From Halobacteriales archaeon QS_4_69_31 (GTDB taxonomy: Archaea; Halobacteriota; Halobacteria; Halobacteriales; Haloarculaceae), in NCBI GenBank assembly GCA_003021655.1, contig PXRP01000010.1, positions 1-64,000 of the forward strand: a stretch of DNA of 64,000 bases. The letters run 5' to 3'. Positions 19,072-43,772 of the stretch are shown in pieces. Position 1 is the stretch's first letter, and each line of letters opens with the position of its first letter. The notes beneath the pieces are model-generated. The model was not told the DNA's origin and did not search any database. It was given only the letters and a program-made list of their open reading frames with translations. Both the position numbers and the translations under genes were made by a program.

Positions 19072-19182
19072 CTCACAGCACCCGCGTCAGGTCGGCCGGC
19101 GAGTCGACAGGACGTGCGCCGCCCACGGCCGCAAGCGCCGGTCGGCTCACAGCACCCGCGTCAGGTCGGCCGGCGAGTCGAC
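19071..19182. repeat. 38-bp perfect direct repeat: HAD gene tail duplicated
   Basis: Bases 19071-19108 and 19145-19182 are identical over 38 bp, period 74. The second copy is the end of the HAD gene (last codons plus TGA); the first lies just beyond the stop. The perfect identity suggests a recent duplication. Confidence 0.95.
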
Positions 19183-19836
19183 CCGGTGGGTCGGTTCGGG
19201 CTCGGGGTCGTCGGGGACCTCCCCGTGCGGGCGGTCGAGCGGCACCCAGACGGACACCATCCCGATGCGGGACGCGCCGGCGACGTCGTGGTCCAGCGAG
19301 TCGCCGACGTAGACCGTCCGCTCCGGCGTCGCGTCGAGCGCCGCCAGGGCTTCCCGGAAGGGCGCGGGATCCGGTTTCGGGGGCGTTCCGGCCTGCGGGT
19401 CACAGAAGACGGTCACGTCGAAAGCGTCGGCGATACCGAGGCGTTCGAGTTTGGCGGTCTGGGTCGCTTCGCCGCCGTTCGTGACGAGGCCGACGGCAGC
19501 GTGCTCGCGGGCGCGTGCCAGCGCCCGCTGGGCACCCTCGCGGAAGCGGACGGCGGTCTCGTCGACGACCTCGACGGTCGCCTCGGCGAGTGCCGGCGCG
19601 TGTGCGGGGTCGCCACCCACGTCGGCGGCCACGGCCCGGTAGAGGTTCTCGTAGAAGCCCCGCTGTGAATCCGCGACCGCGATGTCCTCTCCGTCGACTG
19701 CCCGGACGTCCGCCGGCGAGAAGAACGGCTCGACGTCTACGCGTTCGAAGACCGCCTCGTGGATCTCGTGGTCGCTTTGCTCGCTCACACAGAGGGTGCT
19801 GTCGAGGTCGAACAGGACGGCGTCGCGGGCGGGCAT
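19147..19836 (-). CDS. HAD family hydrolase (phosphatase)
   Basis: 229 aa. HAD motif I FDLDSTLC gives nucleophile Asp10 and Asp12; motif II is LVTNGG; motif III lysine lies in PKPDPAPF; motif IV is GDSLDHDVAGA. The cap is a small helical domain, so this is a subclass I phosphatase or phosphonatase-like enzyme acting on a small cytosolic phosphate; substrate unknown. The element at 41818-43478 carries a clear paralogue of the same length and layout (42592-43326), differing mainly in base composition and codon use. Its last codons are duplicated just past the stop (19071-19108). Confidence 0.92.
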   Translation of the reverse strand: MPARDAVLFDLDSTLCVSEQSDHEIHEAVFERVDVEPFFSPADVRAVDGEDIAVADSQRGFYENLYRAVAADVGGDPAHAPALAEATVEVVDETAVRFREGAQRALARAREHAAVGLVTNGGEATQTAKLERLGIADAFDVTVFCDPQAGTPPKPDPAPFREALAALDATPERTVYVGDSLDHDVAGASRIGMVSVWVPLDRPHGEVPDDPEPEPTHRVDSPADLTRVL

Positions 19837-41424: not shown

Positions 41425-41900
41425 GCGATATCTTCCGCCGGTATCCGTTCCCTACGAGACCACGACGACCGGCCCCGCTCCGGGATCGTGCGCGCATCCG
41501 GGATGGCCTCGGCGATCATCACTCTCTATGCTTTCGGACTCGTCCTCATCGCGGTCGGCGCGGCGCTCGTCCCCGTCATCAGCACGCGGGTCGTCCCGCC
41601 GAAGGGCGACGTCGAGGAGGAGGCCGCCGAACCCGATACCGAGGAGGTCCTCGAGGCGCCCGAGAGCCAGGCGCGGTTCGAACTCTACGAGGACAGGGCC
41701 GGCAAGTACCGCTGGCGACTCGTCCACCGGAACGGCCGGATCATGGGCGACAGCGGCGAAGGCTACGCCTCGCGGACCGGCGCGATAGGGGGCATCCAGA
41801 GCGTCAAGCGCAACGCCGAGGGTGTCATACAAAGGTCTCATACCCGTTCTTCGCTTCCTCGATTCGCTCAGTGTAGATTGTTTACGTTACGAGCGGGCGG

Positions 41901-42319
41901 CTACTGGACGTCGCTCGTCGAGAGTGCACTTCGAACGTTTTCATAGATACGGTCGGTTTCAGTTTCGTCGTACGAACTATCGGGCCCGAGGTCCAATTGG
42001 TCGCCTTCTCGGCGGGGTGCGATATGGACGTGAAAGTGCGGTACTGATTGTTGGGCAGCGCGGCCACTGGCGTTTAGCAGGTTACACCGTCGAAATCGCT
42101 GGAACAGAGCCGTCGGCTGATCGTCCTCACGTGTTTCATTACTGTACACAACGTTGGCTCCGGAATATCGAGTAGGCTTTCGTAGTGTTCTTTCGGGATC
42201 ACCAGCATATGGCCCTCGGAAATGTGGTCGAGAGGAGCGAACGCGAGCGTTTTGTCTGTTTCGTCGAGAATCAGAGCGTCCTCCTGGCCTCGACAGATCG
42301 AACAGAACACGCAGTCCAT
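41901..42319 (-). pseudogene. HIT family hydrolase with a one-base deletion
   Basis: The first frame (42319 down to about 42085) starts MDCVFCSICRGQE with the typical paired cysteines and keeps TLAFAPLDHISEGHMLVIPKEHY split over its middle. After SDFDGV the frame ends in TC-stop, while the other frame continues NLLNASGRAAQQ and the catalytic triad HFHVHI. Total length 419 bp, one short of 140 codons. HIT proteins are nucleotide hydrolases/transferases. Either a real pseudogene or a sequencing error near 42081-42087. Confidence 0.8.
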
Positions 42320-42447
42320 ACCGATGAGTGAGCGTTGACTGTTTTAACAGTTCTGCCAGATTGTGACGCTGTACCAAGGAGGCAATCCATTCGCACATCT
42401 ACCTACCCCCTAATTCCTAACCAGCCCCGAATTTCGAGGATAATCGC

Positions 42448-42558
42448 TCAGTATGGCCGGCGGTGCCCGTCCCACACCCACCAGACGCCGATGAGACTCC
42501 CGACGACCGAGAGCCTGATCGACTGGACCCACGTTAGGTCGATAATGGGGCAATATAC
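42448..42558 (-). pseudogene. 3' fragment of an unknown membrane protein gene
   Basis: Thirty-six codons with no start codon and a stop upstream in the same frame, encoding DLTWVQSIRLSVVG and a helical segment ending WDGHRRPY. The composition is membrane-like and the GC content is higher than the surrounding element. It probably is the end of a gene captured with the element. Confidence 0.45.
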
Positions 42559-42591
42559 TTTTTATTGAAGGGTGTTGACCAATTATTGGAT

Positions 42592-43326
42592 ATGGGGTCA
42601 GTTGACGCGATCTGCTTTGATTTGGATGAGACTCTCTGTGATTCAGAGCTGTCCGATCACGAATTCAACAACAGAGTGTTCCAGCGTGCCGGCATCGACC
42701 CAATTTTTTCTCCATGGGAGCTACGTGCCATTGATCCCGAAGATATAGAACGCGAAAACAAACGCCGTTCATCCAACGGGGACTCGATAAAGGGCATTGC
42801 CGGGTTCTATACGAACCTCTATCGGGCCACAGTCCGCTCCATCGACACTGATATCGAGGCAGAGTCGTCTTTAATTGAAGAACTTGGAAAAATAGCAGGT
42901 GAACTATATGACCCAACAGCTGTAACCTTCCGAGAAGGAGCCGAAGAAACCCTGAAATACGCTCGTGAACACTACAAGGTCGGGCTCATTACGAATGGAA
43001 AAAAAGAGACGCAAATGGCGAAACTTGAAGAACTGGGTATCACTGACGCATTCGATACGGTAGTAATCTGCGATCCGACTAAAGGAATTAGCGGTAAACC
43101 CGCCTCGGAGCCATTCGAAACGGCGTTAGCCGATCTCTCAACCAGCGCCAAGAACACAATACACGTTGGTAACAGTCATGGTGAGGATATCCTCGGAGCA
43201 CACAATGCGGGGTTCCAGACCGTTTGGGTTCCCATGAATAGAGCGCACGAAGAACTCTCATCCGAGCCCGACCCAGCTCCAACATATCGCGTGGAAATGC
43301 TTGGTGAACTCCGATCTATTCTCTGA
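42592..43326 (+). CDS. HAD family hydrolase carried by the insertion cassette
   Basis: 244 aa. HAD motif I FDLDETLC (Asp10, Asp12), motif II LITNGK, motif III lysine in GKPASEPF, motif IV GNSHGEDILGA. Closely parallel to the chromosomal HAD at 19147-19836 along the whole length (shared LSDHE/SDHE, FSPxxxRAxDxEDI, GFYxNLYRA, VTFREGAEETL/VRFREGAQRAL), with a lower GC and a loop of about 15 extra residues near 60-75. TATA-like TTTATT at 42561-42566 is 28 nt before the ATG, so it has its own promoter. A TTG at 42565 would add nine residues. Confidence 0.9.
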   Translation: MGSVDAICFDLDETLCDSELSDHEFNNRVFQRAGIDPIFSPWELRAIDPEDIERENKRRSSNGDSIKGIAGFYTNLYRATVRSIDTDIEAESSLIEELGKIAGELYDPTAVTFREGAEETLKYAREHYKVGLITNGKKETQMAKLEELGITDAFDTVVICDPTKGISGKPASEPFETALADLSTSAKNTIHVGNSHGEDILGAHNAGFQTVWVPMNRAHEELSSEPDPAPTYRVEMLGELRSIL

Positions 43327-43772
43327 CGTGGTCTGTCTGCACAGCTACCCACCAACTGATTCTCAAACAGTCTCGATTTCCGGGGTAAAGCGCTCAGTAT
43401 GCGCTTTTACTGAGCAGCCGATTCGTTTTTGATAGTCCTGAAACTAACCACCTTGCGAACTATTCTATGACACCCTGGCAACGCCCCCAATGCCGACCTC
43501 GACCTGCCCGAGGACGAGGACGACGAGTAACCGACCGCTTTTCACTCTGAGGGCCGGCACCGACGAGACAGCACTCCCGTCGGTCACTCGCCGCCGGTGT
43601 CGAACGTGTCGCCCGTTTCGGTGGTGGGTCAGAGAGGGACGGGCGGCGCTGGGTGCGGGCGGTCGGTAGCGTCGAAGCGGCTCGATGGGACGCGGTCGGT
43701 ACCGGCGCCCGGGTCCGTGGTGGGGCGGCGGCGACGGGGACAGTCCGTGTCCCGAGGCCGAGTATCGGTCGA

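Follow-up and report, generated by a model that had tools for sequence, protein, structure and literature searches.

A probable transposase-less mobile insertion cassette from a large haloarchaeal family with ISH11-type ends and exchangeable cargo

An insert in a DUF1508 gene and its cargo

The window described here, i.e. the whole stretch of DNA that was analysed, comprises 64,000 nucleotides of the genome of Halobacteriales archaeon QS_4_69_31. At positions 41818-43477 it harbors an insert of 1660 bp, located inside a DUF1508 gene and bordered on both sides by an exact 8-bp duplication. The locus is composed of the following features:

41488..41817, + strand: 5' part of the DUF1508 target gene (PF07411, E 1.3e-16); the reading frame resumes beyond the insert, and uninterrupted orthologues are found in L179 and L180
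41810..41817, no strand: left copy of the target-site duplication GCAACGCC, taken from the sequence
41818..41876, + strand: left end module, consisting of an ISH11-like terminal inverted repeat of about 28 bp and a conserved subterminal part with CGATTCGCTCAGTGTAG as its last bases
41901..42319, - strand: HIT-family hydrolase gene (PF01230), frameshifted by a 1-nt deletion
42393..42455, + strand: internal 63-bp repeat, 75% identical to 43339-43401, with the boundary motif CGCTCAGTATG as its last bases
42592..43326, + strand: intact HAD-family hydrolase gene (PF13419, E 1.5e-23; PF00702), the cargo
43339..43401, + strand: the 63-bp repeat again, its end running into the right end module
43392..43477, + strand: right end module, GCTCAGTATGCG...TACTGAGCAGCCGATTC...CTGAAA...CACC followed by the terminal inverted repeat, aligned with 16 other right ends
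43478..43485, no strand: right copy of GCAACGCC, taken from the sequence
43486..43531, + strand: 3' part of the DUF1508 gene, recognized from the joined reading frame

An earlier sequence-only reading of this locus had placed the element at 41818-43478, with the correct start and an end one base too far. The other hallmarks it named were confirmed: the 8-bp duplication is exact at both borders, the imperfect terminal inverted repeats agree in 13 of 14 positions over AGGGTGTCATACAA/TTCTATGACACCCT, the GC content drops from about 0.70 outside to 0.49-0.57 within the insert, and inspection of ORFs and Pfam matches in the window revealed no transposase ORF in the insert. Joining the flanks regains the DUF1508 frame (...SVKRNAPNADLDLPEDEDDE*), in agreement with uninterrupted orthologues, the empty sites that this reading had advised to look for, one from its own genus (L180) and one from a second genus of the family (L179). 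The left end module can be aligned with 12 other left ends (model R1, 66.6 bits), its profile conservation breaking off abruptly past CGATTCGCTCAGTGTAG, and a right end in G318 shows 93% identity to the window's right end module. Since the joined flanks restore a frame that matches the orthologues and both ends recur in other genomes, the insert is not a product of chance.

The cargo had been described as a HAD phosphatase and a HIT hydrolase; the former is intact, the latter is a real member of its family but frameshifted. An intact HIT homologue at an ordinary chromosomal locus (L004) is 82% identical over element positions 74-555, and as the window gene is 1 nt short relative to it, a pseudogene or an assembly error must be assumed. 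The nearest homologues of the cassette HAD protein, from other genera, show 55% and 50% identity. A host HAD-family gene at window positions 19153-19830 encodes a protein of 47% identity; its duplication as the source of the cassette gene was rejected, as it is more distant than the homologues elsewhere. Of the promoter of its own claimed for the HAD gene, there remains a plausible TATA-like stretch, TTTTTATT, which precedes the ATG by about 25-33 nt. The 63-bp repeat at 42393-42455 likely marks a former boundary between HIT and HAD cargo, and the window copy would represent a two-cargo element in which the HIT unit has decayed and the HAD unit is intact. Capture of a third gene fragment, at 42453-42545, was considered and rejected; its matches are weak and lie in unrelated contexts.

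A family with uniform ends and unrelated cargo

When the whole insert was compared by blastn with 394 genomes of the order, many matches were limited to the first ~55 and the last ~70 bp. A left-end model built on sequence only (cut-off E<=0.001) matched 160 of the 394 sampled genomes and 51 of the 95 genera of the order; part of the weaker matches may be ISH11 ends, the terminal repeat being common to both. Among 84,980 species genomes, the terminal-repeat pattern was detected in 110 stretches, all titled haloarchaeal, MAGs included. The conserved ends encompass about 60 bp on the left and 85 bp on the right. The suggested search for cassettes with other cargo proved fruitful: pairing of left and right ends, restricted to non-nested elements, yielded 67 elements, whose lengths range from 251 to 2122 bp (median 720) and whose cargo falls into 53 clusters. 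A duplication of at least 6 bp borders 30 of the 67, and a recognizable one is missing in the other 37, which may be due to age, recombination, or mis-pairing. Of 32 pairs assembled earlier, 14 showed a duplication of at least 6 bp, compared with 0.27 expected from random re-pairing of flanks. The GC content of the cargo is below that of the flanks in 56 of 73 cases.

The genome of the window organism contains two more complete cassettes with duplications, one of 1155 bp encoding an Rce1-like membrane protein (L237) and one of 1171 bp encoding a 286-aa protein read as a membrane protein (L240), as well as a relic on contig 26. Halobacterium salinarum and a Halorhabdus tiamatea plasmid share, at 100% identity, a 374-bp member containing a 65-aa ORF (L145 2501-2874, L147 2501-2874, L107 2-375), and Halomicrobium katesii carries about ten copies of a 395-bp member that may encode a ribbon-helix-helix protein (L059, L077, L095, L098, L112, L120, L137); identity across two genera and this copy number point to recent movement of the family.

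The cargo is best explained as usually one small gene or gene pair, with some assignments coming from elements without a visible duplication. Pfam matches include toxin-antitoxin pairs (PIN and VapB, VapBC; HicA and DUF7387, HicAB), GNAT (two), cupin (three), MazG-like, MarR-like, and DUF7344 (several) proteins, an APH-type phosphotransferase, HD_4, Rce1-like and HalOD1 proteins, an AsnC-type regulator, and one PAS/histidine-kinase/response-regulator protein; the ribbon-helix-helix match is weak, and several cargo genes gave no Pfam match. As in the window, no transposase gene was detected among the ORFs and Pfam matches of the other members' cargo.

Some further observations concern the margins of the family. 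Short members of 251-301 bp (L024, L242, L244, L270) have non-coding interiors that are alike in sequence, possibly an RNA. In L283 (386-1564), a class I (W/Y) tRNA-synthetase gene adjoins a right end 93% identical to that of the window, with a weakly detected partner left end. Carriage by viruses was not supported: the terminal-repeat pattern was not found in IMG/VR, nor the left end in a phage collection; exact matches to the right-core pattern occur in seven IMG/VR contigs (L337-L343). In the open-access papers searched, no description of such a family in archaea was found. The cassettes are widespread in haloarchaea and apparently previously undescribed.

The autonomous IS with the same ends, proposed as a search target by the sequence-only reading, is represented by a 1069-bp element found in several genera. 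It combines the terminal repeat of the cassettes with a 330-aa DDE transposase (PF01609) and carries the plasmid annotation IS5-like ISH11/ISNpe17/ISHma6/ISHla6; similarity between cassettes and ISH11 ceases after the terminal ~28 bp. Duplications of 6, 8, and 9 bp are described for ISH11 insertions (PMC10264941), and those of the cassettes, 6-9 bp, show much the same spread. Haloferax elongans (L075) has a 3.25-kb unit within a single outer duplication, made up of a cassette and a reversed ISH11 copy whose inner end is mutated. Similar composites are present in L253 and L277, and in L060 an HSDR_N gene lies between two cassettes, all within one duplication. This suggests that a cassette end can form a unit with an ISH11 end or with another cassette, whereby adjacent genes might be captured. 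The ISH11 transposase is associated with strong left ends (29/59 vs 78/335 genomes, odds ratio 3.2, p 1e-4), a comparison that ignores phylogeny and overall mobilome size; it was not found in the 82% complete assembly of the window organism. Since the terminal ~28 bp match and the composites pair cassette and ISH11 ends in one duplication, an ISH11 transposase provided in trans is the likely engine of the cassettes.

Cargo replacement at identical sites

In three Haloarcula genomes, a cassette occupies exactly the same position upstream of a gene read as trm1. The left ends are nearly identical (ranks 9-13 among 1770 pairs), and the cargos are unrelated: VapBC, a 226-aa protein, and a membrane protein. 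In a close relative (L150) this site is empty, with one copy of the ACCGCCAGA-like target. At a second site (L226/L244), the left ends are identical, the right ends 85% identical, and the interiors unrelated. With site and ends shared and interiors unrelated, it follows that the ends stay and the cargo changes. Independent insertions could in principle give the same picture; they are disfavoured, since the left ends have private substitutions in common. At both chromosomal sites the swap points coincide with, or lie no more than about 10 bp from, inner motifs that are sharply conserved: over about 60 elements, conservation of the left module extends through CGCTCAGTACAG and then falls to background level, and the right module starts with GnTCAATnCGCA, followed by TACTGAGCAG.

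The architecture of a mobile insertion cassette, as claimed from the sequence, is borne out by the ends, the duplication, the empty sites, and the recurrence with unrelated cargo, and ISH11 composites and same-site replacements were seen as well. The insert very probably belongs to a large haloarchaeal family of transposase-less mobile insertion cassettes with ISH11-type ends and exchangeable cargo. Such an element would consist of two layers. The outer one, ISH11 (IS5)-type terminal inverted repeats of about 28 bp, would be processed in trans by an ISH11-family transposase, whose cutting and joining would yield the 6-9-bp target duplications. The inner one would be formed by the subterminal modules with their sharp boundaries, enclosing the exchangeable cargo, whose turnover might proceed by recombination at these modules, by the formation of composites that then lose internal DNA, or by both.

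It has close to an even chance of being right that the elements are otherwise the same and their cargo turns over by ordinary homologous recombination, different copies recombining through their end modules in halophiles that exchange DNA efficiently. The shared modules, 60-85 bp long, offer the required homology, and the right ends of L029 and L032 are closer to that of L247, at another site, than to each other, as conversion between copies predicts. Two cargos also occur outside of cassettes: L325 and L326 contain VapBC of L020 (94% and 91% identity) and L310 contains the membrane-protein gene of L032 (97%), all without the cassette transposon ends. Against such recombination, the left homology outside the cargo amounts to only about 9 bp in L020/L325 and L032/L310. 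Homologous recombination via the end modules, or composite formation plus internal deletion, would nevertheless be an adequate explanation.

The same junctions can be read in an integron-like manner, with a site-specific recombinase moving gene cassettes at TCAGTAC/TACTGAGC cores and the mobile insertion cassette acting as a transposon chassis that holds one or two of them. The inner boundaries are sharp; L325 and L310 have their left junction after the GTCAGTAC core, L326 has it at about the same place with the core missing, and the DNA further to the left is unrelated in all three. Moreover, sites with similar cores recur between small genes in L310/L331, L332, L335, L140, L346, and pNRC100 (L344), arranged in tandem as sites of ~80-190 bp in L332, L140, L335, L346, and pNRC100; an 89-base version of the site matched 23 plasmid records, in 67 places altogether, a few of these records being weak, chance-like matches. 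Individual positions are 9843, 10374, and 12105 in pNRC100, with six places in L140 and three in L346; L345 matches as well. However, no recombinase tied to the sites was found. An integrase lies near the pNRC100 sites, and its family occurs in 261 plasmid records without linkage to sites, in Halobacterium noricense far from the site; it is a doubtful candidate for the exchange enzyme. Likewise, attC-like folding was rejected, as four array sites fold no better than shuffles. The common sequence of L226/L244 runs about 10 bp beyond the core, and VapBC in L324 has a different left junction, both as ordinary recombination predicts. With no linked recombinase, poor folding of the four sites, and some junctions off the core, integron-like exchange is kept as an unlikely hypothesis. 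Equally doubtful is its extension to a haloarchaeal cassette economy without a classical integron, in which TCAGTAC/TACTGAGC-bounded units in tandem arrays would be exchanged by a putative recombinase, and half-sites captured by ISH11-type ends would make single cassettes transposable.

That the insert is merely ISH11 in decay, with its transposase gone, is highly improbable, although the matching terminal ~28 bp would speak for it: outside the terminal repeat, the conserved 60/85-bp ends are unlike ISH11, the cargo is unrelated to ISH11, and no transposase remnant was found. Hence none of the refuting cases named by the sequence-only reading came about, be it a lack of other copies, a lack of empty sites, or a deleted IS copy.

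Significance and relation to known systems

Gene gain in haloarchaea is extensive, and its small-scale vehicles are poorly known. A family present in about 40% of the sampled genomes of the order constitutes a concrete gene vehicle, whose uniform ends deliver toxin-antitoxin pairs, regulators, and enzymes. Same-site cargo replacement offers a testable route to the 'different genes at identical positions' left unexplained in a Haloquadratum study (PMC3119063). As members reside on plasmids of the model organism Halobacterium salinarum, experiments are practical.

The ends of MIC231, a mobile insertion cassette of Bacillus cereus, are those of IS231. MIC231, which is cited in PMC6542083, resembles the haloarchaeal cassettes in its IS-like ends, the lack of a transposase, the passenger gene, and the need for a transposase in trans, the last of which is a likely trait of the cassettes. 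Unlike MIC231, the latter have an archaeal host, IS5/ISH11-type ends, long conserved subterminal modules, dozens of cargo types, and same-site cargo replacement. The window element displays several defining traits of a mobile insertion cassette, namely IS-related terminal repeats without a transposase, passenger genes unrelated to transposition, a duplication, and an empty site; mobilisation in trans by the related transposase, a further trait, is indicated indirectly by the composites L075 and L253 and by co-occurrence. Such cassettes had been held to be known mainly from Bacillus; in the papers searched, the term is applied to Xanthomonas as well. The ISH11-family IS5 elements (ISH11, ISNpe17, ISHma6, ISHla6) share the terminal ~28 bp and the 6-9-bp duplications with the cassettes, whereas they possess different subterminal DNA and their own IS5-type transposase, for which the window element has no ORF.

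MITEs of Halobacterium and Haloquadratum (MITEHsal1/2, HqIRS MITEs, ISH2) (PMC10264941, PMC3119063) are likewise transposase-free, with terminal repeats related to known IS and with duplications, of 8 and 6 bp for MITEHsal2. They are mostly short and non-coding, whereas the window element spans 1660 bp with an intact gene and the interiors of its family are unrelated from copy to copy; the 395-bp and 374-bp members behave as MITEs. PATEs, also transposase-free haloarchaeal elements, have neither terminal inverted repeats nor duplications (PMC3119063), and membership of the window element, which has both, was rejected. Deletion-coupled insertions of Haloquadratum resemble the cassettes in placing unrelated DNA at exactly one position in related strains; they show no conserved border sequence, whereas the cassettes keep their end modules (PMC3119063).

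Integrons, including those described in archaea, where haloarchaea are not mentioned (PMC9668308), have in common with the haloarchaeal arrays small cassettes, toxin-antitoxin and acetyltransferase cargo, and tandem arrays with repeated sites. Unlike in integrons, no IntI could be tied to the sites of the haloarchaeal arrays, and an attC-like fold was not seen in four sites; small cassettes separated by related sites in L332, L140, L346, L344, and L335 constitute a likeness in sequence. Pack-MULEs of plants are non-autonomous elements with shared ends and captured genes, their cargo being mostly gene fragments. The haloarchaeal cassettes resemble them in the shared ends and captured genes and differ in transposase superfamily and host.
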